A stretch of DNA of 64,000 nucleotides. Source: Tenggerimyces flavus. Lineage in GTDB: Bacteria; Actinomycetota; Actinomycetes; Propionibacteriales; Actinopolymorphaceae. This document shows, in pieces, positions 51,334-64,000 of this stretch. How positions within the stretch are numbered: the first letter of the stretch is position 1; each line of letters begins with the position of its first letter. Location of the stretch: NCBI RefSeq assembly GCF_016907715.1, contig NZ_JAFBCM010000001.1:6634001-6698000 (forward strand), given 5' to 3'. Under the pieces are notes generated by a model. It saw nothing but the letters and a program-made list of their open reading frames with translations. It was not told the origin of the DNA and did not search any database. Both the position numbers and the translations under genes were made by a program.

Positions 51334-52320
51334 ATGAGCGTGACCCTCGCCGACGTCGCGGCTGCTTGCGGGATCTCACCGTCCACGGTGTCGCGGGCCC
51401 TGTCCGACCCCGACAAGGTCAACGCCGCTACCCGGAAGCGGGTCCAGCAGGTGGCCAACAGGATGGGCTACACGCCGAGCCGAGCCGCCCGTTCGCTGTC
51501 GATCGGGCGCACCGGCACGATCGGGCTGATCGTGCCCGACATCGCGAACCCGTTCTTCCCGCCCTTGATCAAGACCGTGCAGTCGCGCGCGACTGCACGG
51601 GCGAACGCGGTGCTGCTCGCCGACACCGACGAGCACGTCGCGGACGAGCTGCCGCGCGCGCGGGCGATGCGCAAGGACGTGGACGGGCTGATCATGGTGT
51701 CGCCGCGCACGTCGGAGGCGCGGATGGAGGAGCTCATCCAGCTCGGCCCGATCGTGTTCGTCAACCGGCAGGTGCCCGGCGCGACGTGTGTGACGATCGA
51801 GAGCGCGAACGGCATCAACGACGCGATCGAGCACCTCAGCGCGCTCGGGCACAGGAACATCTGCTACCTGAACGGGCCGCGCCGTTCGTGGTCGAACGCC
51901 CAACGCCACAAGGCGATCCGCGCGGCGTGCAAGTCGCGCGGCGTCGAGCTGACCGAGTTCGGCCCGTTCGAGGCACAGGTCCAGGCCGGTGTCCGGGCGG
52001 CCGACCTCGTCCTCGCGAGCGACGCCACCGCGGTGCTCGCGTACGACGATCTGATCGCACTGGGCGTGATGGGCCGGATCGCCGAGCGCGGGCTGCGCGT
52101 CGGCCACGACGTCAGCGTCATCGGCATCGACGACAGCCCGATGTCGAGCGTGATGTACCCGACGCTGACCTCGATCCACGTTCCGAACGCCGAGGCCGGA
52201 GCACTCGCCGTCGACCTCCTGCTCGACCTCCTCGAGGGCGTCGAGGGCGTGGACCCGGACGAGACCGAGCTGGAGACCCACCTCGTGATCCGCGGCTCCA
52301 CCGGCCCGGTCCCGGCCTAG
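51334..52320 (+). CDS. LacI-family transcriptional repressor
   Basis: 328 residues from ATG 51334. N-terminal helix-turn-helix and hinge: TLADVAAACGISPSTVSRAL and MGYTPSRAARSL (1-55). The periplasmic-binding-protein-like sensor follows, with GTIGLIVPDIANPFFP, SVIGIDDSPMSS and TSIHVPNAEAG. The hinge and recognition helix are of the type that binds CG-centred palindromes such as AAGCGCTT, present in its own promoter and before two other operons of the locus. The inducer is probably a (oligo)galacturonate metabolite. Confidence 0.92.
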   Translation: MSVTLADVAAACGISPSTVSRALSDPDKVNAATRKRVQQVANRMGYTPSRAARSLSIGRTGTIGLIVPDIANPFFPPLIKTVQSRATARANAVLLADTDEHVADELPRARAMRKDVDGLIMVSPRTSEARMEELIQLGPIVFVNRQVPGATCVTIESANGINDAIEHLSALGHRNICYLNGPRRSWSNAQRHKAIRAACKSRGVELTEFGPFEAQVQAGVRAADLVLASDATAVLAYDDLIALGVMGRIAERGLRVGHDVSVIGIDDSPMSSVMYPTLTSIHVPNAEAGALAVDLLLDLLEGVEGVDPDETELETHLVIRGSTGPVPA

Positions 52321-52331
52321 CCTCGACCTCT

Positions 52332-52456
52332 CGTCCGGCGGTGGGTTCGCCCCGGCCGGCCCTGCCCTGGGGCCAATGATCATGTTTACATGATCATTTG
52401 CCGCTTTACGTGGGGTGGACGCCAGGTAGAGCGGTCACTGGCCGGGTAAGGCGACC
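52332..52456. repeat. Dispersed palindromic repeat, copy 3
   Basis: 125-bp copy, reverse orientation to copy 1, with the same outer words (CGTCCGGCGGTGGGTTCG and GGTAAGGCGACC). Hairpin 52371-52402: arms GGCCAATGATCATG and CATGATCATTTGCC (one mismatch), loop TTTA. Next to it CCGCTTTACGTGG and CCAGGTAGAGCGG form a second imperfect inverted repeat. Lies between converging LacI (52320) and serine hydrolase (52477) genes. Confidence 0.75.
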
Positions 52457-52476
52457 ACGACGCTGAGCCGATGCGG

Positions 52477-53616
52477 TCAGGCCTCGTCGGCTCCCGCACG
52501 GAACGCACTCTCGCCGGGAACGGCGGTGAGGAGCAGGTCCGCTCCGGCCAGCTCGCTGCCGCGATCGGTCAGGACGAGTGGATCACCCTGCCAGTCGAGC
52601 CCGGCCAACGTTCGGTTCCTTGCACGGCCAGCGAACAAGGGAAAGGGCCACATCGACTCGGCTATGAGGAGCTCCACCTCGTTCCCCGAGCGGACCTCCA
52701 TGACCTCCTGGCCGTCCAGCCACCAGGAGCGAACGACCTCCCGGCGCTGCCAGCGCTCGACCGCTTCATCGCGAAGCACGCGGTGGTCCACAGCCGCGTT
52801 GGCGACCAGGACCGATGCGCCACGTCGCGGCCAGACGAGAACGCAGGTGGTGTGCCCGAGGATCGTCCCTGAACTCATGAGGGTCAGGTGGGCTCCCTCC
52901 CGGTGGATGCGAAGGCCGGCACCGAGTGCCCCGCCTGACCCATCGGCGACCGCGCATTCGAGGAGCAGCTCGATCATCTTCCCGGAAACCACGTCCGGTC
53001 GATGCCCAGCGAGGGCGGCAGCGAGCCCGACCAGGTCTCGCGTGGTCGACCGCAGGTCCCCCGCGGGCGCCGCAGCGCCCAGCACCCCGGGAGGTTCGTC
53101 GACTCCGCGCGAGAACGACGTCGCGTGCATGTCCAGCGGCGCCAGCACCTGGTGGAGCAAGAGGTCAGCGAAGGGCTGATCGACGAGTTGCTCCAGGCGA
53201 AGCGCCGCCAGTCCGTACGCGGCGTTGGAGTAGTGCCACGTCAACGGCGGCATCCACAGTGACGGCGTACGACTGAGAGCGGTCGTCAACTCGTCTCGGA
53301 AAGGTCCAGCCGAGAACCAATGGTCCGGTCGAAGCTCGAACGGGAGACGCGAGGTGTGGTTGAGCAGGGACCGCCAGGTGATACCCGACGACGGTGCGAT
53401 CGGATCGGACCAGCCCAACACGCCGTCCACCGCCAACCGTGCGACCACGAGCGCGGTCAAGGTCTTCGTCACCGACGCGATCGGGAAGCGATCGTCGAGT
53501 CCGATCGGCCCGCTCGCGTCGAGAATCGTGCCGTCGTCGCCAGCGTGGACGCGGGTGAGGGCCAGACGGTCATCGGCAAGGTCGTGGCTTCGGACGGAGT
53601 GCATGGTCAGGATCAT
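52477..53616 (-). CDS. Serine hydrolase (beta-lactamase/PBP class C family)
   Basis: 379 residues. The active-site motif SVTK at 48-51 (SxxK) and YSN at 129-131 (YxN) are present; a third-motif HTG/KTG equivalent is likely LGHTT. No signal peptide, so cytoplasmic, as for many esterase/aminopeptidase members of the family. It is divergent from the Dpp-type transporter at 53720 and may trim imported peptides or esters. ATG 53616 used; ATG 53604 is possible. Confidence 0.85.
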   Translation of the reverse strand: MILTMHSVRSHDLADDRLALTRVHAGDDGTILDASGPIGLDDRFPIASVTKTLTALVVARLAVDGVLGWSDPIAPSSGITWRSLLNHTSRLPFELRPDHWFSAGPFRDELTTALSRTPSLWMPPLTWHYSNAAYGLAALRLEQLVDQPFADLLLHQVLAPLDMHATSFSRGVDEPPGVLGAAAPAGDLRSTTRDLVGLAAALAGHRPDVVSGKMIELLLECAVADGSGGALGAGLRIHREGAHLTLMSSGTILGHTTCVLVWPRRGASVLVANAAVDHRVLRDEAVERWQRREVVRSWWLDGQEVMEVRSGNEVELLIAESMWPFPLFAGRARNRTLAGLDWQGDPLVLTDRGSELAGADLLLTAVPGESAFRAGADEA

Positions 53617-53719
53617 ACGAAGCTGACACCTCGTTGCGTAGCATACTTACGTACTTCGATGAATTTTTTGAACCAGAATCCATGGACGCTTCGTTATTTA
53701 ATGACGTAGATTCCGTGTC
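53617..53719. promoter_or_regulatory. AT-rich divergent promoter region
   Basis: 103-bp gap that is strikingly AT-rich for this genome (for example GAATTTTTTGAAC and GTTATTTAATGACG). It must contain the promoters of the serine hydrolase and the transporter operon; I could not place -35/-10 pairs with good spacing. It is a natural binding place for the RpiR-type regulator at 59752. Confidence 0.45.
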
Positions 53720-54826
53720 ATGCCGACCAACGGCGCGCAGACGGCCTCGCCAAGCGCACGGGACCGCGACCAAGGCGCCAGCCGCCGCGCCTCGGGGTTC
53801 GGGGTGGTTCGGCAGCTCGCCGCGTTCCTGGTGCGGGCCGTCCTCAGAACCGTCCTGATGCTCTGGTTGGTCGCCAGTGTCACGTTCCTGGCGATCCGGG
53901 CACTGCCCGGCAATCCGGTCGACGTCTGGGTCCAGGACATGCAGGGCACCGGAATGACCGCGGCCCAAGCCGAGAAGCAGGCAACGCGCCTGCTGAACAT
54001 CGACGTCAACGAATCGCTGTGGAGTCAGTACGTCAGCTACCTGAACAACCTGCTCCGGGGGGACCTGGGGCAATCGGTCATTCTCTCGCCCGGCACGCCC
54101 GTCAGCGAAATGATCGGCGACCGGCTCGGCTGGACGCTCTTCAGCGTCGGGTTCGCCCTCATCATCGGCTTCTTCATCGGGCTGTACCTGGGCGGCATCG
54201 CGGCCTACCGCCGCGGGAGCTGGCTCGACCGGGTCATCACGAACGGCAGCGCGCTGATGGATTCGATCCCACCGGTCCTCCTCGGGATCCTGCTCACGTT
54301 CTACCTGAGTGTCGTGTGGGATCTGGTGCCGGTTCAGAACCTTCGGGGCGCGTACTCGCCCGACGTGCAGCCCGGCCCCAACCTCGACTTCGTCCTGAGT
54401 GCCTTGGCCCACGTCATCGCGCCGGGCACGGTGTACATCCTCACCAGCGTCGGCGCATGGGCGCTGATCATGCGGAGCAGCGCCCTCAGCGTGCTGGGTG
54501 ACGACTACGTGAAGCAGGGGCGTGCTCGCGGATTGTCCGAACGGACGATTCGAGTGTCGTACGTGCAGCGCAACGCCCGGCTCCCCCTGGTGACGGGCTT
54601 CGCCATCAGCATGGGCTTCGTCGTTTCCGGGTCCGTCCTGGTCGAGGAGATCTTCGTCTATCCAGGTGTCGGCCAGCTCCTGGCCGACGCCCTTGCCCGA
54701 CGCGACTACACCGTCATGCAGGGCGTGGTCATCGCCACCACCATCACGGTCCTCATCGCGACCGCCGTCGCCGACGCTCTGTACGGCTGGCTCGACCCTC
54801 GAACCCGGATCGAGGTGAGCTCGTGA
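53720..54826 (+). CDS. Dpp/Opp-type ABC transporter permease (DppB-like)
   Basis: 368 residues, with about 35 extra charged residues before the first helix. Six helices. Typical pieces are VTFLAIRALPGNPVD near helix 1, and the C-terminal EEIFVYPGVGQLLADALARRDYTVMQG block of DppB/OppB proteins. It forms the membrane channel with the next permease for peptides, nickel or oligosaccharides. Its stop overlaps the next GTG (GTGA at 54823). Confidence 0.9.
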   Translation: MPTNGAQTASPSARDRDQGASRRASGFGVVRQLAAFLVRAVLRTVLMLWLVASVTFLAIRALPGNPVDVWVQDMQGTGMTAAQAEKQATRLLNIDVNESLWSQYVSYLNNLLRGDLGQSVILSPGTPVSEMIGDRLGWTLFSVGFALIIGFFIGLYLGGIAAYRRGSWLDRVITNGSALMDSIPPVLLGILLTFYLSVVWDLVPVQNLRGAYSPDVQPGPNLDFVLSALAHVIAPGTVYILTSVGAWALIMRSSALSVLGDDYVKQGRARGLSERTIRVSYVQRNARLPLVTGFAISMGFVVSGSVLVEEIFVYPGVGQLLADALARRDYTVMQGVVIATTITVLIATAVADALYGWLDPRTRIEVSS

Positions 54827-55743
54827 ACGATCTGGTGGATCGGCACACGGCGGGTCCGCCAGCCGACGGCAGTCCGGGCGATCACACCGCGGTTCCGAGG
54901 CGACGCCCGGTCCGCGGATGGATACGTCGCCTGGGGTTCGGCGGGACGTTCGGCGTCACCGGCCTGCTCGCACTGGTGCTCACGTGTGCCTACGGACGCT
55001 TCGGGTTGGAAGTCCCGTCCACCGACCTGAATGCGATCGCCCAGGCGCCCAGCGCGGATCACCCGATCGGCACTGACTTCGTCGGCCGCGACAATCTCGT
55101 CCTCCTGATCCGTGGCGGCTGGGACATGCTCGAGCTGGCGTTCGTCGCCGGCACCCTGATGTCGGCGATCGCCGTCGCCGTGGGCCTCCTCGGGGCGTTC
55201 GCAGGTGGCGTCGTCGACCGCGTCCTGGTGACCGTCACCGACGTCTGGCTGACGGTCCCGCGGTTCATCCTGCTACTCGTGATCGCAAGCCTGTTCCGTG
55301 TCGGATCGACAGTCGCGCTCGCCGTCCTCATCGCGCTGTTCGGCTGGCCCTACCTGGCGCGTCAGATCCGCTCTCAGGCGCTGTCGCTCCGCAGTCGTGA
55401 GTACGTGGAATCGGCACGTCTTCTCCAGCTTCGGACCGTCCACATCATGGTGCGATACCTGGTCCCCGCCGTGGCGCCGTTCGTCGTCATCGCGACGATC
55501 CAGGCCATGACCTCCGCGATCTATCAGCAAGTGGGCTTGGCGTTCTTCGGACTGGTACCGCTCGAGGACAACTGGGGCGTGCTGTTCAGCGTCGCGTACG
55601 GCCAGAACGCGCTCTATCTCCCCGCGGCCGCCTGGAGCATGCTCGCGCCCGTCGCGGCGATCTGCTTCCTCCAGTTCTGTCTCGTGCTCGCCTCGCGTTC
55701 GCTGGAGGAAGTCTTCGACCCGCGATTGAGGGGCGGTCGGTGA
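54823..55743 (+). CDS. Dpp/Opp-type ABC transporter permease (DppC-like)
   Basis: 306 residues. DppC features are the N-terminal helix, HPIGTDFVGRDNLVLLIRGG (family HPLGTDxxGRD) and the EAA loop SLRSREYVESARLLQLRTVHIMVRYLVP. The usual C-terminal FDPRL is present. Translationally coupled on both sides. Partner of the DppB-like permease. Confidence 0.9.
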   Translation: MNDLVDRHTAGPPADGSPGDHTAVPRRRPVRGWIRRLGFGGTFGVTGLLALVLTCAYGRFGLEVPSTDLNAIAQAPSADHPIGTDFVGRDNLVLLIRGGWDMLELAFVAGTLMSAIAVAVGLLGAFAGGVVDRVLVTVTDVWLTVPRFILLLVIASLFRVGSTVALAVLIALFGWPYLARQIRSQALSLRSREYVESARLLQLRTVHIMVRYLVPAVAPFVVIATIQAMTSAIYQQVGLAFFGLVPLEDNWGVLFSVAYGQNALYLPAAAWSMLAPVAAICFLQFCLVLASRSLEEVFDPRLRGGR

Positions 55744-56780
55744 TGACTGCGGACGCGATCGACACGACAGCACTCGGAGATCCGCCGACGTCTGTCGTTC
55801 TCGAGGTCGAGAGACTGACGGTGCGGTACCAAGAGGGGGACCGAACGGTCGAGGCGGTCACAGATCTGTCCCTCTCCCTCCGGCGAGGTCGCACGGTTGT
55901 CCTGATCGGAGAATCGGGTTGTGGCAAGACGACCGCCGCTCTCGCCATCCTGGGAATGCTCCCGCAGACGGCGACCATCCCTTCAGGTCGGATCAGGATC
56001 GACGCGGGTGGCAGATCGGTCGACATGCTCTCGGTCCCCGACGCGGAGCTGCGCTCCCTGCGTTGGAACCATGTCGCGTACGTACCGCAGAGCTCGATCA
56101 GTGCGTTCAACCCCATCCAACGCATCGGGCAGCACTTCCGACAGACCGCGGACGCCCATCGCATGGCACGAGGAGCCGCGGAGGCGAGAGCATCTGAACT
56201 GCTCGCCGCGGTCCACCTGGACCCGCACCGGGTGTGGCACTCGTACCCGCACGAGTTGAGCGGCGGCACCAGGCAGCGGGTTGCCATCGCGTTGGCGATG
56301 CTGCTCGACCCGGCCGTGATCATCCTTGACGAACCCACAACCGCGCTCGATGTGCTCACGCAGGATGCGGTGTTGCGGACCCTGCTCGAGCTCCAGGAGT
56401 CCACTGGCGTGAGCTATTTGGCGATCACCCACGACCTCGCCGTGGCAGCCGCCCTTGCGGACGACCTCGTCACCATGTACGCCGGCCGCGCCGTGGAGGT
56501 GGGCCAGGCGGCAGACGTGCTGGCCGAACCCCTTCACCCGTACACGCGCGGGCTCCTGCGGTCGATGCCGTCGGTCGATTCGCACGCCGCCGCCGAACCC
56601 ATCGGTGGATACCCGCCGAGCATGGCCAACCTGCCACCAGGGTGTGCGTTCCACCCGCGTTGCGCCCTCGCCGAGCAGAGCTGTCGAAGCGGACCGTCGC
56701 CAGACCTCGTCCGGTTCGCGGGCCGGTCGGTTGCCTGCCCGATCGTCGCCACCGCGCAGGGTCCAGGTGAAGGCCGATGA
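55743..56780 (+). CDS. ABC transporter ATP-binding protein (DppD-like)
   Basis: 345 residues from ATG 55743 (GTG 55740 also possible). Walker A GESGCGKTT at 56-64, the signature LSGGTRQRV, Walker B VIILDEPTTALD, and the C-terminal oligopeptide-transporter segment PPGCAFHPRCALAEQSC, whose cysteines bind an Fe-S cluster in some DppD proteins. One of two ATPases of the importer. Confidence 0.92.
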   Translation: MTADAIDTTALGDPPTSVVLEVERLTVRYQEGDRTVEAVTDLSLSLRRGRTVVLIGESGCGKTTAALAILGMLPQTATIPSGRIRIDAGGRSVDMLSVPDAELRSLRWNHVAYVPQSSISAFNPIQRIGQHFRQTADAHRMARGAAEARASELLAAVHLDPHRVWHSYPHELSGGTRQRVAIALAMLLDPAVIILDEPTTALDVLTQDAVLRTLLELQESTGVSYLAITHDLAVAAALADDLVTMYAGRAVEVGQAADVLAEPLHPYTRGLLRSMPSVDSHAAAEPIGGYPPSMANLPPGCAFHPRCALAEQSCRSGPSPDLVRFAGRSVACPIVATAQGPGEGR

Positions 56781-57628
56781 ACGGACTCGTCTTCCTTTCC
56801 GACATCTCCAAGGTGTACCGGAGTCGCCGACGGGAAGTGACGGCTGTCGACCGGGTGACCCTCGGTCTCGATCCTGGTCAGATCGTCTGCCTGGTAGGCG
56901 AATCCGGGTCTGGAAAGAGCACCATCGGTCGGATCGTCACCGGGTTGACCGACCCGACCGCTGGCGACCTGCGGTACGGCGGAGTGTCCGCGCGGTCGAT
57001 GTCGCGGCGCGAGTTGAAGGCCAGTCGACTCGCTGTCCAGCTGATCCATCAGGACCCCTATGCCTCGCTCAACCCCGGAATGACCGTCGGCGCGACGCTT
57101 GCCGCGCCGCTCAAACGACACGAGGGACTGTCCGGAACCGAGCTCTCGCGTCGAATCAGGACCCTGCTGGAGGACGTGGGGCTGACGCCATCAGGGCTCT
57201 TCGAACCCAAACTCCCCCACGAGCTGTCCGGCGGGCAACGGCAGCGGGTGGTCATCGCCCGGTCCCTGACTGTCGACCCCAAGGTGCTCGTCGCCGACGA
57301 GGCGCTCTCGATGTTGGACGTCTCGATCCGAGTGAGCGTTCTTCAGATGCTTCGCGGGCTTTGCGACGACCGCGAGCTTGCTGTCCTGTTCATCACGCAT
57401 GACCTCGCCGTCGCCCGCCAGTTCGGCGACGGCCACACCGTAGCGGTCATGCAGCAAGGGCGGATCGTCGAGCACCGCGACACCGCGACGCTCGTGGCGA
57501 ATCCGGAGCACGACTACACCAGAGATCTGCTCCGCGCCGCTCGACACGAAGGCCTGCGATCCAGGCACTCGCCGCACCCGCAGTCGGTACCCGCGACAAA
57601 CGCGCCGGCGATGCCGCCCGGACGTTAG
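56777..57628 (+). CDS. ABC transporter ATP-binding protein (DppF-like)
   Basis: 283 residues. Walker A GESGSGKST at 41-49, LSGGQRQRVVIARSL, Walker B KVLVADEALSMLDVS, and the switch His in FITHDLA. It has Ala at DEALS where most have DEPVS, a common DppF variant. It is shorter than DppF with the C-terminal cysteine segment. Overlaps DppD by 4 nt. Confidence 0.9.
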   Translation: MNGLVFLSDISKVYRSRRREVTAVDRVTLGLDPGQIVCLVGESGSGKSTIGRIVTGLTDPTAGDLRYGGVSARSMSRRELKASRLAVQLIHQDPYASLNPGMTVGATLAAPLKRHEGLSGTELSRRIRTLLEDVGLTPSGLFEPKLPHELSGGQRQRVVIARSLTVDPKVLVADEALSMLDVSIRVSVLQMLRGLCDDRELAVLFITHDLAVARQFGDGHTVAVMQQGRIVEHRDTATLVANPEHDYTRDLLRAARHEGLRSRHSPHPQSVPATNAPAMPPGR

Positions 57629-57702
57629 GCAGCGACTTCGACAGCTCAACCCTCCGCCGCATGAGGTGCGACGGTGCTCTACCCAAAATCTGAGGAGTAC
57701 CG

Positions 57703-59586
57703 ATGACCAGAACCAAGCTCCGGTCGGCCGTTCTCGGCCTCACCATGGTGGTCCTTTCTTCGTTGGCCGCCGCATGCGTCGGAGATGCGAACGGCAACAA
57801 CGACAAGGATTCGCCGAACAAAGAGGTGGGGACACTGGAGTTGGTCTCGGCTGAGCAACCGGCGCAACTGCCCGGAAAGGTAGCCGAAGGCACGAAGTTC
57901 GTCATCACCGTGAATCTCAAGGACGACATCGGATGGTCGGACGGTACGCCGCTCACCTCTCGCGACTTCGTCGGACTCTACGACGTGAAGTGGGCGCAGC
58001 AAGACCCCGTGTGGGAGTCGTTGACCGAGGTGCGGGCACCGACCGACACCACCCTGGTGTTCGAAACGCGTGAGCTGTCGCCCAACATCATGCAGCGGCT
58101 CGTGCGCTGGAATCAGCCGGCGTCCTCATCCCAGTACGGCGAAATCTACAAGGCGCTCGGAGAACTGCGGGCCAAGGGCACCGCTCCCGACAGCACAGAA
58201 GTGGCTTCGGTTCTCAAGAACCTGGACGGCCTCAAGCCCGAGAGCACCATCGCGTACGGGCCCTACGTTGTGGACCCCAGCGCGGTGACAGCGCAGCAAA
58301 TGACGATGGTGAAAAACGAACACGGCTACAACGCCGACAAGTTGGCCTTCGAACGAGTCGATGTCACCTGGGGATCAACCCAGCAGACGGTTCCCCTGCT
58401 GCTCCAGAACCAGCTGGACTACACGACGGACGCCTTCACACCGACCGACGTCCAGGCGCTCAGCGCGAACAAGAACATCGAGTTCATCCGCTCACCCCTC
58501 AGCACAGGAACCGGCATCTGGTTCAACGAGACCATCAAACCGTTCGGCGACAAGCGGTTCCGACAGGCGATCGCACTGATCATCGACAGGAAGCGAAACG
58601 CGAAGGTCGCGCTGGGAGATGCCGCCAAGCCTGTCGAGCACATGGTCGGGTTCAGCGACGTCTATGTCGCTGACTGGCTACCCGCGGAGGTCGTCAGCGA
58701 GCTCAACCCGTACGACCGGAACCTCGACGCGGCGGAGAGCCTGCTCACCGAGGTTGGGCTCACCAGGTCTGGGGATTCCTGGTCCTATGGCGGTGAGAAG
58801 TACGGGTTCGAGATCACCGCACCCTCCGACTTCCCCGACTTCCTCGCTTCCGCGAAGGACGTCAGCGCACAGTTGAACGAGTTCGGATTCGACACCCACG
58901 TGCGCGGCATCCCCGCAGCCAACCGTCCCGACACGATCAAGCAGGGACGGTACAAGGTCATGCTCGACTTCGGCATGGTCTCGACGCCGTCGCACCCTGC
59001 GAGCAGCCTCAACTGGAACATGGCCGAGGGGTACTTCGGCACCAACAATCCCGAGAGCACCGGCTCGAAGGGCCTCGCGTGGCCATGGCGCCAGACAGCA
59101 GCGGACGGAACCAAGGTCTACATCCCTGACCTCCTGGACGAAGCAGTCGAGGGCATGGACGTGGCGCCGCAGCGGAAGGCAGTCGAGACGCTGGCGCAGA
59201 TCTTCAACGACCAGCTCCCCGTCGTTCCGATCTTCGAGCGGTACACCACCGACCCGATCGCCCACGGTCCGCGGGTCACCGGCTGGTTGCCGAAGGACCA
59301 TCCGGTGTACAAGAACAACCAGGGCAGCGATCCGTACGTGTCGATCCAGCTCCTGGAGGGCGTCCTGAAGCCCGTCGAAGGTGGGGACGGCACGTTCCGA
59401 ACCAGCGCTCCCTACGCCCAGCCTCCCAACTTCTCCTGGAACTACTACGGGGCGAACAGCATGTTCTCCACCATGACGTCGCCGTCCTACGACATCGCCT
59501 TCCCACCGTTGTTCTGGTACTCGCAGGCCAAACGCGCCTATGTGCCAAGCGTGGGCAAGTCGTACTCGGTCGCCGAGGTCGGCTAG
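57703..59586 (+). CDS. Family 5 extracellular solute-binding lipoprotein, N-lobe shortened
   Basis: 627 residues with a lipobox LAAAC (Cys25), so lipid-anchored outside. The SBP-5 core starts only about 45 residues later at FVITVNLKDDIGWSDGTPLTSRDF, whereas normal family members have about 100 residues of N-terminal lobe first. The rest, including [20 protein letters not shown] and [16 protein letters not shown], is complete. It should deliver substrate to the DppBCDF-like importer. It closely resembles the C-terminal 575 residues of the protein at 59752-62304, which is encoded tail to tail. Confidence 0.87.
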   Translation: MTRTKLRSAVLGLTMVVLSSLAAACVGDANGNNDKDSPNKEVGTLELVSAEQPAQLPGKVAEGTKFVITVNLKDDIGWSDGTPLTSRDFVGLYDVKWAQQDPVWESLTEVRAPTDTTLVFETRELSPNIMQRLVRWNQPASSSQYGEIYKALGELRAKGTAPDSTEVASVLKNLDGLKPESTIAYGPYVVDPSAVTAQQMTMVKNEHGYNADKLAFERVDVTWGSTQQTVPLLLQNQLDYTTDAFTPTDVQALSANKNIEFIRSPLSTGTGIWFNETIKPFGDKRFRQAIALIIDRKRNAKVALGDAAKPVEHMVGFSDVYVADWLPAEVVSELNPYDRNLDAAESLLTEVGLTRSGDSWSYGGEKYGFEITAPSDFPDFLASAKDVSAQLNEFGFDTHVRGIPAANRPDTIKQGRYKVMLDFGMVSTPSHPASSLNWNMAEGYFGTNNPESTGSKGLAWPWRQTAADGTKVYIPDLLDEAVEGMDVAPQRKAVETLAQIFNDQLPVVPIFERYTTDPIAHGPRVTGWLPKDHPVYKNNQGSDPYVSIQLLEGVLKPVEGGDGTFRTSAPYAQPPNFSWNYYGANSMFSTMTSPSYDIAFPPLFWYSQAKRAYVPSVGKSYSVAEVG

Positions 59587-59674
59587 CCGGACGTGCCTGC
59601 CCTCCTGGGGAGACTTGGGATGGCGACGTCTCGAGTGATCTGGGGCGGAAGGCACTCCGTGGCTGAGACGTCTC

Positions 59675-59776
59675 GGTCGCCTTACCCGGCCAGTGGCCGC
59701 TCTACCTGGCGTCCACCCCACGTAAAGGGGCCAATGATCATGTAAACATGATCATTGGCCCCAGGGCGGGCCGGGG
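59675..59776. repeat. Dispersed palindromic repeat, copy 4
   Basis: The longest hairpin of the family: perfect 16-bp arms GGGGCCAATGATCATG (59727-59742) and its complement (59747-59762) around TAAA. The left flank repeats GGTCGCCTTACCCGGCCAGTGG and GCTCTACCTGGCGTCCACCCC of copies 1 and 3. It lies between converging genes; the right arm contains the TGA of the RpiR-SBP gene and the flank encodes its last residues (GPPWGQ). Confidence 0.8.
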
Positions 59777-62304
59777 ATCGGCGATCCGTCGACCTTGGCC
59801 ACCGAGTACGACTCTCCAACTGCCGGGATGTAGGCGTCGATCGCCTCGCCGTACCAGAACAGTGGCGGCAGGGTGATGTCGTACGACGGCGAGGTCATCG
59901 TGGCGTAGATGCTGTGGGCGGCGAACTGGTTCAACACGTAGGTCGGCGGCTGGGCGTACGGGGCGCTGGTACGGAACGAGCCGTCGCTGCCGTCCGCGGG
60001 CTGGAGGATCCCCTCCAGGAACTGGATCGACACGTAGTTGTCGCTGCCCTGGTTGTTCTTGTAGACGTAGACCGGATGGTCCTTGGGCAGCCAGCCGGTG
60101 ACGCGGGGACCGTGGGCGATCGGGTCGGTGGTGTACCGCTCGAAGATCGGAACGACGGGGAGCTGGTCGTTGAAGATCTGCGCCAGCTTCTCGACGGCAC
60201 GCTTCTGCCGCTCTTGGTCGAACCCGGCGACCGCCTGGTTCAGCAGATCGGGAATGTAGACCCCTGTCCCGTCCGCGGCCCGCTGGTGCCACGGCCAGTT
60301 GAGCCCCTTGGGTCCGCTCGCCTCGGGCTTGTTCGTACCGAAGTGTCCTTCGGCCAGGTTCCAGCCGAGGCTGGTCGCCGGGTGGGAGGGGGTGGAGACC
60401 ATGCTGAAGTCGAGCATGACCTCGTACCTGGCCTGCGCGATCGTGTCGGGTCGGTGCGCGGCCGGGATACCGCGTACGCGAGTGTCGAACCCGAACGCGT
60501 TGAGCTGCTCGCTCACGTCCTTGCCCGAGGCGAGGAAGTCGGGGAAGTCCGACGGTGCCGTGATCTCGAACCCGAAGGCCTCGCCCTCATAGGTCCAGGT
60601 GTCCTTGTCCTTCGACAAACCGACCTCCACCAGAAGGCGAGCGGCGGCGTCGAGGTCCCGGGGGTAGGTGTCGAGGCCGGCGACCACCTCGTCGGAGAGC
60701 CATCCGTCGACGTAGGTGTCGCTGAACCCGACCATGTACTCCACCGGCTTGGCAGCCTCACCCAGGGCGACCTTGGCGTTGCGGTCCCGGTCGATGATCA
60801 GCGCGATCGCCTGCCGGAACCGCTTGTCGTCGAACGGCCGGATGGACTCGTTGAACCAGATCCCGGTGCCCGTGCTGAGCGGGGTCCGAATCAGTTCGAG
60901 GTGAGGGTTCGCCTCGAGTGCCTTGACGTCGGTCGGGGTGAACGCGTCGGTCGTGTAGTCGAGCTCGTTCCGCAGCAGCAGCGGCACGGTTTGCTCCGAC
61001 CGGCCCCAGACCACGTCGACGTGGTCGAAGGTGATCTTGTCGCCGTTGTAGCCGCCGTCGTTCTTGACCATGCGCAGCTGCTGCGTGGTGACCGAGCTCG
61101 GGTCGATGACGTACGGACCGTACGTCACGGCCCGGTCCACCTCCAGAGCCTCGAGGTCGTCGAGCACAGCCTGGACCTTGGCGTCTCCCGGGGAGGCGCC
61201 CACCGCGCGCAACTGACCGAGCCGGTCGTAGATGTCGCCGAACAGCGACGATGGCGCCGGCTGGTACCAGCGAAGGAGTTGCTGCAGGAGGTTCGGCGAG
61301 AGGTCGCGGGTCTCGTACACCAGCTGCGTGTCCGACGAGGCCTTCACGTCCGTGAGCGACGCCCAACTCGGGTCCTGTTGCGCCCATTTCACGTTCCACA
61401 GGCCGACGAAGTCGTGGGCGGTGAGCCTCGTCCCGTCCGACCACTCGATGCCGGGCTTGAGGTTGACGGTGATCGCGGTGTTGACGCGTTGTTGGGCAAC
61501 GAGGACGAAGATGACCTCGACGAGGGCGAGCTGAGCGATCCGACTGGCCATGGCGCCGGATCGGAACGTGGTCTCGCGCGCCGCCGTCGTCAGGACGATG
61601 TCCGCCCGACGAGCGATCGGGGCGCGCGGGTAGTTCGTGACGGCGACGGTCGTCGCGCCACTCTTGGCGGCCGCCTCGAGGTAGCGGATCGTGTCCTTGG
61701 TGGAGCCGGAGTGCGACAGACCCACAGCCACGTCATTGCTGCCGAGCGTGCCCGCCGAGTCGATCGCGAAATGCGGATCGGCGAAGCTGTGGCTCATCAA
61801 CCCCAGGCGATGCAGTTTGGACTGCAGCTCCTGGGCAGCGAAGGAGCTCGCACCGGCGCCGAAGAGGTCGATACGTCGTGCCGCCACGATCGCCCGTGCG
61901 ACTTCCTCGAGGCTCCGAGTCGACACCTGCTCTGCTGTTTCGGTGATCGCGCGCGCGTCAGCGCCCGCCACCTTGCGGACGATCTGAGCCGTGGTGTCGT
62001 CCGGCAGGATCTCGCCGGAGAGCTGCTCTTCGTTCCTGTTCGCCGCAGCCGCGGCCGCCAAGGCGAGCCGGAACTCGGGGTAGCCGTTGAACCCGATCGT
62101 GCGACACAGCCGAATCACCGTGGTCTCGGAGGTGTTGCAGCGGCGCGCCAGCTCGGCGATCGTCGACGCCGCCGTACCTTCGGGATGGTCGAGCGCCGTC
62201 CGGGCGACGCGGGCCTCCGACCGCGAGAGGTTGGGCAGGATGCCGCGCAGCGTCGCGAGCACCGTACGGTCGACCGGCTCGTGCTTGGCAGCGGACTTGG
62301 ACAT
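59752..62304 (-). CDS. RpiR/MurR regulator fused to a family 5 solute-binding domain
   Basis: 850 residues in one open frame. Residues 1-85 are the RpiR HTH ([37 protein letters not shown]). Residues about 120-260 are a SIS domain ([27 protein letters not shown]). At about 272-278 the sequence passes directly into an SBP-5 domain ([22 protein letters not shown]) running to the end. No signal peptide, so it is cytoplasmic. The SBP part is a close paralogue of the binding protein at 57703 and lacks the same N-terminal lobe. It could be a regulator that senses the transported ligand directly, a recent recombination product, or an assembly join. Confidence 0.8.
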
Positions 62305-62516
62305 CTTCCCCTCTCACCCCTCTCGTCGTTCGGGGATCGTATCTGAGCCGACGGCGCACAGCTGGGAAGCCGCAACCATGGCTCCTCGAGCTCCTACATG
62401 CTTGCCTGGCGCTCAGATGGGTGTCGCACCTGATGGTCGGGAGCGCCGCCACGGCGAAGACTTGGGCTGTGAGCATCTTCGGGCAGCTGGACAGTCGGGC
62501 CGATCGGGTTGGTGCC

Positions 62517-62975
62517 ATGCGGGCAAGTGATATCGCCGTGAACGTGCCGACTGTCACTGTGGACGATCAGGTGGCGAAGGCTGTCCGGGTGATGGTGGTG
62601 AGTCGGCTTCCGGGGCTCGTTGTCGTGGACGAACGATCGCGGCCGTCGATCGTGCTCCCTGGTACGCAGGTGTTGCGGTTGGCGGTTCCGGGGTCCTACC
62701 AGGAGGACCCCAAGCTGGCGCACGTCGTCGACGAGTCCTACGCCGACAGCTTCTGGCAGGAGCTGGGTGACCGGACCGTGGGCGAGTCCCTTCCCGCGAA
62801 GCCGACGAAGCCCGTGACGGTTCCCGCGGACGCCACGTTGCTCGAGGTGGCGGCGTTGATGGCACGCCAGCACAGTCCGCTCGTGGCGGTGGTCGACCGC
62901 GATGGCGTGCTGGTGGGCGCGATCACTCTCGAACGGTTGATCACGAGCCTGGCGGTCCTCGGCAACGACGAGTGA
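62517..62975 (+). CDS. CBS-domain pair protein
   Basis: 152 residues from ATG 62517; GTG 62469 would add 16. The first CBS motif spans about 1-60 ([35 protein letters not shown]) and the second about 105-150 ([37 protein letters not shown]). CBS pairs bind AMP/ATP and gate transporters or enzymes. It is about 95 nt before the permease gene on the same strand, so it may regulate that transporter. Confidence 0.82.
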
Positions 62976-63069
62976 ACGACGTCCGCCGCTAGTCGACACG
63001 AACGATCACGTGCTGTGGGGAGGTCGCGCCCGTGTGCCCGAAGCCAAGCAGGACGGCGCGGCATGAACG

Positions 63070-64000
63070 ATGACAGCCGTTGCCGCGTTGACGATCTTCC
63101 TGATCGCGTTCTACTTCATCGCCACCGAGAAGGCGAACAAGGTCACGGTCGTCCTGATCGCGTCCGGCGCGATGGCCGTGCTGGGGTTGGTGCCTGGCTC
63201 GGAGGTGTTCTTCTCCGAGCACGAGGGGATCGACTGGAACGTCATCTTCCTCCTCCTCGGCATGATGGTGATCGTCGGAATCATCAAGCAGACAGGCGTT
63301 TTCGAGTTTCTCGCCATCTGGGCGGCGAAGAGGGCGCGCGGTAAGCCGTATCGGCTCATGGTGATGCTGATGGTCATCACCGCGATCGCCTCACCGTTCC
63401 TCGACAACGTCACCACGATCATGTTGGTGGCGCCCGTGACCGTGGTCGTCTGCGGCCGGCTGCGCATCCCGGCGCAGCCGTACCTGATCGCGGAGGTGCT
63501 CGCGTCGAACATCGGCGGCGCCGCCACGCTGATCGGCGATCCTCCGAACATCATCATCGGCAGCCGGGGCGGGCTCACGTTCACCGACTTCCTCGTCCAC
63601 ATGGCGCCGATCGTCGTGGTGGTCTTCGTCTTGTTCGTGATCTTCGCGAGGTTCCTCTTCCGCAAGGCCTTCCAGCACGCCCCCGAGGAGCTGGAAGCGG
63701 TGATGGCGTTGCAGGAACGACGGGCGATCACCGATCCGGCGATGCTGCGGCGGTGCCTGATCGTCTTCGGTGCCGTCGTGATCGGGTTCGGGCTGCACGC
63801 CGTGGTCCACATCGACCCGGCGATCGTCGCTCTCGTAGGTGCGGGCCTGATGTTGCTGGTCACGAAGGCGGACGTCTCCGATGTCCTGGCCGAGATCGAG
63901 TGGCCGACGCTGGTCTTCTTCATGGGCCTGTTCGTGATGGTCGCCGGCCTGGTGCACACCGGTGTGATCGCCACCATCGGCACCTGGGCGGCGGGGGCGT
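63070..64000 (+). CDS. ArsB/NhaD-family (SLC13-like) ion permease, truncated by window
   Basis: At least 310 residues, continuing beyond 64000. Start ATG 63070. Multiple membrane helices, with SPFLDNVTTIMLVAPVTVVV and ASNIGGAATLIGDPPNIIIGS, the re-entrant substrate and ion-binding motifs of the ArsB/NhaD/citrate permease superfamily. Candidate substrates are anions, citrate, arsenite or Na+/H+; nothing nearby decides. Pairs with the CBS protein upstream. Confidence 0.87.
   Translation, partial: MTAVAALTIFLIAFYFIATEKANKVTVVLIASGAMAVLGLVPGSEVFFSEHEGIDWNVIFLLLGMMVIVGIIKQTGVFEFLAIWAAKRARGKPYRLMVMLMVITAIASPFLDNVTTIMLVAPVTVVVCGRLRIPAQPYLIAEVLASNIGGAATLIGDPPNIIIGSRGGLTFTDFLVHMAPIVVVVFVLFVIFARFLFRKAFQHAPEELEAVMALQERRAITDPAMLRRCLIVFGAVVIGFGLHAVVHIDPAIVALVGAGLMLLVTKADVSDVLAEIEWPTLVFFMGLFVMVAGLVHTGVIATIGTWAAGA

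Follow-up and report, generated by a model that had tools for sequence, protein, structure and literature searches.

The fused gene and the importer locus

The stretch of DNA analysed here, 64,000 nucleotides of the Tenggerimyces flavus genome (the window), carries on its minus strand a single open frame, 59752..62304, which encodes a protein of 850 aa consisting of a MurR/RpiR-type regulator and a solute-binding domain of the SBP_bac_5 type with an apparently permuted chain order. Pfam analysis of the fused protein revealed an HTH_6 DNA-binding domain at residues 16-87 (62044..62259, minus strand; E 1.7e-16, 60.4 bits against a curated cut-off of 28.3), a SIS domain at residues 140-267 (61504..61887, minus strand; E 1.3e-22, 80.5 bits against a cut-off of 25, profile positions 3-130 of 131) and a match to SBP_bac_5 (PF00496) at residues 275-649 (E 7.6e-42, 144.2 bits against a cut-off of 32.4, profile positions 16-360 of 368). 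The SBP_bac_5 domain of the fusion extends over residues 278-839 (59788..61473, minus strand). Thus HTH and SBP_bac_5 are combined in one chain without an export signal in front, and the domain order HTH, SIS and SBP-5, which had been proposed by an earlier reading made from the letters of the window (the sequence-only reading), is borne out. The SIS domain of the MurR/RpiR family is marked by a motif of the SxSGxT type, and the alignment showed that this motif is retained in the fused protein as SHSGST. The best NCBIfam match of the regulator half was the MurR/RpiR model NF008458 (2.8e-58, residues 10-277), with a score under the NCBIfam equivalog cut-offs (197.2 against 378 bits). At E<=0.001, Pfam gave only HTH_6, SIS, SIS_2 and SBP_bac_5 in the fused protein and no SgrR_N, the defining domain of the regulator SgrR. 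The DNA-binding domain of SgrR and DsvR is not HTH_6, and these regulators are not known to have a SIS domain. Because the fused protein has an N-terminal HTH and no export signal before its SBP half, we infer that it should be cytoplasmic.

The fused gene is convergent with the gene of SBP1 (P0002; 57703..59586, plus strand), a protein of 627 aa with an N-terminal signal-like segment, recognised by eye. This gene comes after the four importer genes identified by Pfam on the plus strand, dppB (53720-54826), dppC (54823-55743), dppD (55740-56780) and dppF (56777-57628). The SBP half of the fusion is 70-71% identical to SBP1, in agreement with the earlier claim that it is a paralogue of the binding protein of the adjacent importer. 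On the minus strand, at 52477..53616, lies a gene for a beta-lactamase-family serine hydrolase, for which the nearest NCBIfam name is AmpH, at a score below the cut-off of that model. No tRNA gene was found in the window, and no Rfam match was obtained for its part 52000-64000.

Relatives, junction and 3' boundary

A class sample of 394 genomes was searched with SBP1 (E<=1e-80) and with the regulator half (E<=1e-85). Two genomes, designated G487 and G497, carry close relatives of SBP1 (71% and 67%, respectively) and relatives of the regulator half (75% and 73%, respectively). In both of them the orthologues are separate genes: the regulators are 296 aa long and have their own stop, the SBPs are 630 and 622 aa long and have their own N-terminus, and in G487 the two genes are on different contigs. 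The genus is covered by one genome, which is the window's own. No comparable protein was found in the other genomes of the family (8 genomes) or in any other genome of an order sample of 391 genomes (E<=1e-90), and among 22 genomes of the family to which G497 belongs (E<=1e-85) only G487 and G497 carry close relatives. The genome samples are subsets of larger groups and overlap. Looser relatives, namely canonical separate SBPs (about 30-35%) and regulators (51-54%), are present in 8 of the 8 family genomes and were not counted. An exact-word search of genome contigs, in which records near the window's genome may be left out, returned 10 regulator-like loci (22-28%) and no SBP relative; a plasmid search returned 2 distant SBPs, and two viral-collection scans returned one SBP locus of one contig (L072, identical with L073). 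The gene adjoining the locus on its right, by eye an ArsB/transporter-like frame, has relatives in each of 7 genomes of the family; in two of these genomes, no other window frame matched with more than 90 bits within the 19.5 kb around that relative.

Since regulator and SBP are separate in both relatives found, the comparison indicates that the fusion is a derived state, found in one genome among those searched, and it may be recent. The sequence-only reading had pointed to related genomes as the place to look for the three domains in one protein; in the two relatives found they are distributed over separate genes, which makes the fusion derived and leaves it real in the present genome. It had also argued from the unbroken frame that the fusion is kept. 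The frame is indeed open throughout, but it is no proof of retention, because a derived fusion may be of recent date. The distances among the four SBP sequences are compatible with either of the two copies, the fused one or SBP1, having been resident for longer.

By codon comparison the fusion junction was assigned to A277/I278 (61465..61485, minus strand). The fused chain tracks the regulators up to A277 and the SBPs from I278, and the boundary between codons 277 and 278 corresponds to base 61474/61473, close to the position near 61480 (residue about 275) given by the sequence-only reading. The last 19-20 residues of both orthologous regulators have no counterpart in the regulator half, so its chain does not end after the SIS domain as theirs do, and a stretch of 573 residues stands in their place. 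From the SBP half, 62-70 residues are missing that form the signal and linker at the start of SBP1 and of both orthologous SBPs; the half begins at the first core strand, directly behind the regulator, and the absence of a signal peptide noted earlier is thereby confirmed. No long homology was seen at the break in the codon comparison, and a deletion would be the simplest cause of the junction. It is very improbable that two separate genes were misjoined here by assembly or sequencing. The fusion is known from the assembly of a single genome, but this genome is a single contig of 8,519,422 bases, the two halves are joined in frame at the edge of a domain, and long homology at the break is lacking. 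Moreover, the second-best copies in the genome are only 51% identical to the regulator half and 70% identical to the SBP half; therefore, no near-identical repeat was available for a false join. The in-frame fusion is present in the sequence.

At the other end of the SBP half, the stop of the orthologues is lost in the fused gene. The frame goes on past the orthologues' end for 11 codons and a stop (59752..59787, minus strand), terminating within a 36-base palindrome (59727..59762, plus strand) which lies between the two convergent genes and is part of a dispersed repeat. This repeat is about 100 bases long (estimated by eye) and has its palindromic end around AATGATCATGTAAACATGATCATT. With up to 2 mismatches, its 24-base core occurs 176 times in forward and 188 times in reverse orientation in the genome (a site may count on both strands) and is absent from six other genomes, i.e. 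four of the family together with G487 and G497. Copies in the window are at 283 (+), 14372 (+), 52375 (-) and 59733 (+), and the repeat could be a REP- or MITE-like element. From this repeat at the 3' end together with the broken 5' end we infer that the SBP half has probably been through a rearrangement. The repeats at 52375 and 59733, which are in opposite orientation, flank the beta-lactamase-family gene, dppBCDF and SBP1; the segment 52369-59762 could in principle be inverted by recombination between its two repeats.

Over 560 codons shared with the SBP of G487, the fused SBP is 75.5% identical to it (dN 0.154, dS 0.785) and SBP1 is 74.3% identical (dN 0.173, dS 1.183). Compared with each of the three other SBPs, the fused SBP gave dN/dS ratios of 0.20, 0.25 and 0.36. 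Unique departures in the main part of the SBP amounted to 33/308 in the fused copy compared with 38/313, 18/293 and 48/323 in the others, and those in the C-terminal tail to 10/36, which is within the range of the others (3/29 to 12/38). The tail differs from that of G487 at 23 of 65 positions in the fused copy and at 13 of 65 in SBP1 (Fisher p 0.077), and unique changes are slightly in excess in the regulator half (31/208 against 20/197 and 24/201). Neither a stop nor a frameshift interrupts the core of about 560 codons of the fused SBP, and amino-acid changes are not clearly in excess there; this conservation may largely predate the fusion.

Chain order of the binding-protein half

The sequence-only reading overlooked what the sequence evidence points to, namely a circularly permuted SBP in the fusion. 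In canonical SBPs, the first 65 or so mature residues are part of lobe I. The four proteins of this family (SBP1, both orthologues and the fused copy) all lack a block of about 65 residues before the first canonical core strand, and all have about 65 extra C-terminal residues in comparison with canonical SBP_bac_5 proteins. Profile and window comparisons suggested that the equivalent of the canonical N-terminal block (N-block) is located at the C-terminus of the SBP half (59788..59982, minus strand); in SBP1 it would correspond to residues 563-627 (59389-59583, plus strand). Just ahead of this block, the fused SBP has a two-residue in-frame duplication, VYVY (window 60061-60072), which is found in this copy only.

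For these comparisons an N-block model was made from 16 of the 20 canonical rows; L044-L047, which are without the motif used for cutting, were left out. Run against the four whole proteins, the model gave weak matches to the tails of G497 (i-Evalue 0.0021), SBP1 (0.02) and G487 (0.097). Compared as profiles, the tail and the N-block scored 14.3, a value reached by none of 300 column shuffles (mean 1.9, maximum 12.65). When the tail was slid over the canonical alignment in 26 windows, scores of 19.7 and 19.8 were obtained at the N-block (over 59 and 64 columns, respectively), 6.0-11.2 in 4 windows partly overlapping the N-block, and no more than 3.4 in the remaining 20. Alignments of single tail sequences gave z values of 5.6-8.9 for the best pair of each protein, over 59-64 residues, and with 4 to 9 of the 21 targets the score was not reached by any of 200 shuffles. 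With the tail moved to the front in silico, the match to the canonical model improved by 12.9 bits for SBP1, 8.2 for G487 and 14.3 for G497, whereas 20 shuffled tails for each of these proteins changed the score by -0.2 to +1.2 bits on average and by 4.8 at most. For the fused copy the gain was only 1.1 bits, which is inside the range of its shuffles and not significant for this copy alone.

The tail might instead be an added domain unrelated to the N-block, a question which concerns the nature of the domain and not the fusion. The family comprises only 4 sequences, and structure prediction of SBP1 from a two-row alignment, with the fused SBP half as the second row, gave a mean pLDDT of 34.1 and a pTM of 0.25. 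The identity of the tail to canonical N-blocks is low, about 15% and up to 25% in one alignment, the median z over the 21 targets is just 1.8-3.0, and the N-block model misses the fused copy's tail, which gets an i-Evalue of 0.21. We nevertheless consider an unrelated tail quite unlikely, as the best canonical N-blocks align with it over their full 59-64 residues and specifically at that block, no shuffle attains the observed score, and the N-block is missing from the place where it is expected. By sequence, the SBPs of this locus seem to be circular permutants that carry the canonical N-terminal block at the C-terminus.

The permuted family is rare: a C-terminal tail alignment found it in 3 of 383 genomes of a class sample (E<=1e-12) and in 1 of 391 genomes of a phylum sample (E<=1e-10), the latter being the window's own. 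TpMglB-2 (Tp0684) of Treponema pallidum, termed 'Type Ic / Cluster Bc', is described as an ABC binding protein that is circularly permuted in nature: N-lobe strands usually near the N-terminus sit near the C-terminus (PMC4990184). TpMglB-2 belongs to the sugar-binding proteins of type I and its crystal structure has been solved, whereas the protein proposed here to be permuted is an SBP_bac_5 protein known by its sequence, one copy of which is fused to a regulator. No precedent for a permuted SBP_bac_5 was found in the open-licence literature searched.

The chain order bears on what the fusion retained. Since the segment lost by the SBP half would, in a permuted family, comprise the export signal, the linker and a short overlap, the fusion appears to have kept a complete permuted domain, and the chimera could fold as a regulator plus a complete binding domain.

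Possible function, alternatives and significance

The neighbourhood in the relatives gives a clue to the substrate of the importer. The dppBCDF orthologues of the two relatives match at 68-80%, and the orthologue of the serine hydrolase adjoins the regulator gene in G487 and lies close to dppB in G497. The order of genes in G497 is a beta-lactamase-family hydrolase (minus strand), NlpC/P60, dppBCDF, SBP, murQ, a class A beta-lactamase-like gene (minus strand), the MurR/RpiR-type regulator and an M19 dipeptidase. There, murQ (L058 11507-12400, with the start codon chosen by us) starts 4 bases past the permuted SBP gene, and its product is an N-acetylmuramic acid 6-phosphate etherase by NCBIfam (4.6e-86). 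Relatives of murQ, M19 and NlpC/P60 were found neither in the retrieved G487 stretches nor in the window; elsewhere in the window's genome, at about 3.07 Mb, another RpiR-type gene adjoins a MurQ-like gene (46% to the MurQ of G497). Among solved structures, the best match of SBP1, a weak one, was MppA (1.8e-08), one of the murein-peptide-binding proteins. MppA/OppA-type murein-peptide and oligopeptide binding proteins are SBP_bac_5 relatives of SBP1; they are free exported proteins with the canonical chain order. Because dppBCDF, the SBP gene and murQ are clustered in G497 with a MurR/RpiR gene and cell-wall peptidases, the importer is probably a muropeptide or wall-fragment importer, an assignment that draws mainly on G497. 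The sequence-only reading had called it Dpp-type; dppBCDF are present, but in the light of murQ in G497 a probable muropeptide importer is the better description.

Just upstream of dppB, at 53692..53709 (plus strand), lies the box TTNATGACGTAG, a candidate operator, which is found upstream of dppB in all three genomes (the window's, G487 and G497). With up to 1 mismatch it has one match in the window, where 0.22 would be expected by chance, and three further one-mismatch matches occur elsewhere in the retrieved stretches of the relatives. No copy of the box turned up ahead of the fused gene, and the box may be common to the dppB upstream regions by descent for another reason. As HTH and SIS are nearly complete and the box is common to three genomes, control of the importer by the fused regulator through this candidate operator is plausible.

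SgrR of E. coli and DsvR/Vca0578 of V. cholerae are described as regulators that carry an HTH at the N-terminus and an SBP_bac_5 domain at the C-terminus (PMC13060122), and the order HTH, then SBP_bac_5, is the same in the fused protein. The latter differs from them in its apparently permuted SBP, in the paralogue of this SBP in the adjacent importer, and in its regulator of the MurR/RpiR type. With the MurR/RpiR family (NF008458; E. coli MurR, NF012026) it shares HTH_6 and SIS, and its orthologue in G497 is near murQ, whereas its scores fall below the equivalog cut-offs and its C-terminus is replaced. An earlier fusion of RpiR-SIS to a pathway protein, judged from model name and matched positions, is the bifunctional RpiR regulator/glucokinase (NF010701), of which the partner is an enzyme and not a binding protein and stands, by profile positions, ahead of the regulator half. 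No precedent for RpiR-SIS joined to SBP_bac_5, or for RpiR with a solute-binding domain, was found in the open-licence literature searched. The 'new architecture' announced by the sequence-only reading is therefore new, as far as these searches go, in its RpiR-SIS partner, but not in placing SBP_bac_5 behind an HTH, which is already known from SgrR and DsvR. The fusion brings together known parts, one of which, the binding domain, is unexpectedly of an apparently permuted kind; no precedent for this combination was found in the open-licence literature searched.

Our best explanation of these results is that a MurR/RpiR regulator fused to a copy of the importer's SBP works as a two-input cytoplasmic regulator of the probable muropeptide locus; we hold it tentatively, at somewhat less than an even chance. 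A deletion would have joined the MurR/RpiR-type regulator gene in frame to a second copy of the SBP gene of the importer. If the permuted fold starts almost at the break, the product would be a near-complete regulator with a complete, unexported binding domain. The chimera would remain in the cytoplasm and, dimerised through SIS, bind DNA close to the promoter of the importer; the SIS domain would respond to a sugar phosphate, for which MurNAc-6-phosphate is a guess, and the binding domain would add, on the model of SgrR, a response to a second ligand, namely a cell-wall peptide taken up by the importer. The deletion event, the location, the operator, both ligands and the second input are the parts of this explanation that go beyond the observed sequence. 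It is supported by the architecture, by separate genes in 2 of the 2 relatives found, by linkage to murQ in 1 of the 2, by the weak match of SBP1 to murein-peptide-binding proteins, by the sequence evidence for permutation, by the lack of a clear excess of change in the SBP core and by the precedent of SgrR and DsvR; against it count the single genome, the muropeptide link coming mainly from G497, the faster tail, the lost stop, the slightly raised number of unique changes in the regulator half, the gain of just 1.1 bits on reordering of the fused copy and the absence of the box upstream of the fused gene. A fuller version, in which this two-input regulator is seen at its birth, with SIS reading the sugar phosphate and the captured permuted SBP reading the imported wall peptide, and in which the permutation let one deletion make a sensor, is rather doubtful.

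The SBP half may also be an inert passenger of a recent fusion, in which the regulator half works and the SBP half is conserved from its time as a free SBP. This is almost as probable as the two-input reading, likewise at less than even odds: among the genomes searched the fusion occurs in 1 only, the codons around the break are still near those of both parents, and the SBP half is disturbed at both ends, by the 5' break and by the 3' dispersed repeat with the lost stop. A domain of this size that has remained free of stops, frameshifts and clear amino-acid excess over about 560 codons argues in the other direction. An outright remnant, i.e. a decaying gene whose regulator was inactivated by the rearrangement while the importer came under another regulator or none, is unlikely. 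The 19-20 regulator residues lost at the junction, the bulky tail, the lost stop, the faster tail, the slight excess of change in the regulator half and the second RpiR-type gene beside a MurQ-like gene elsewhere in the genome would fit with decay, but the SIS and HTH_6 domains still match their profiles at 1.3e-22 (positions 3-130 of 131) and 1.7e-16, no disruptive change is present, and the dN/dS values of the fused SBP are those given above (0.20 to 0.36).

The fused gene illustrates how SgrR-like regulators could arise from the SBP of a transporter, the state before fusion still being visible in the relatives. By its sequence, it also points to a natural circular permutation within the SBP_bac_5 class, the sole natural precedent that we found, TpMglB-2, being of another class. 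If, as in the two-input reading, the chimera senses peptides, one recognition domain would be common to the regulator and the importer, and a regulator of cell-wall recycling would read both halves of the muropeptide, the sugar and the peptide.
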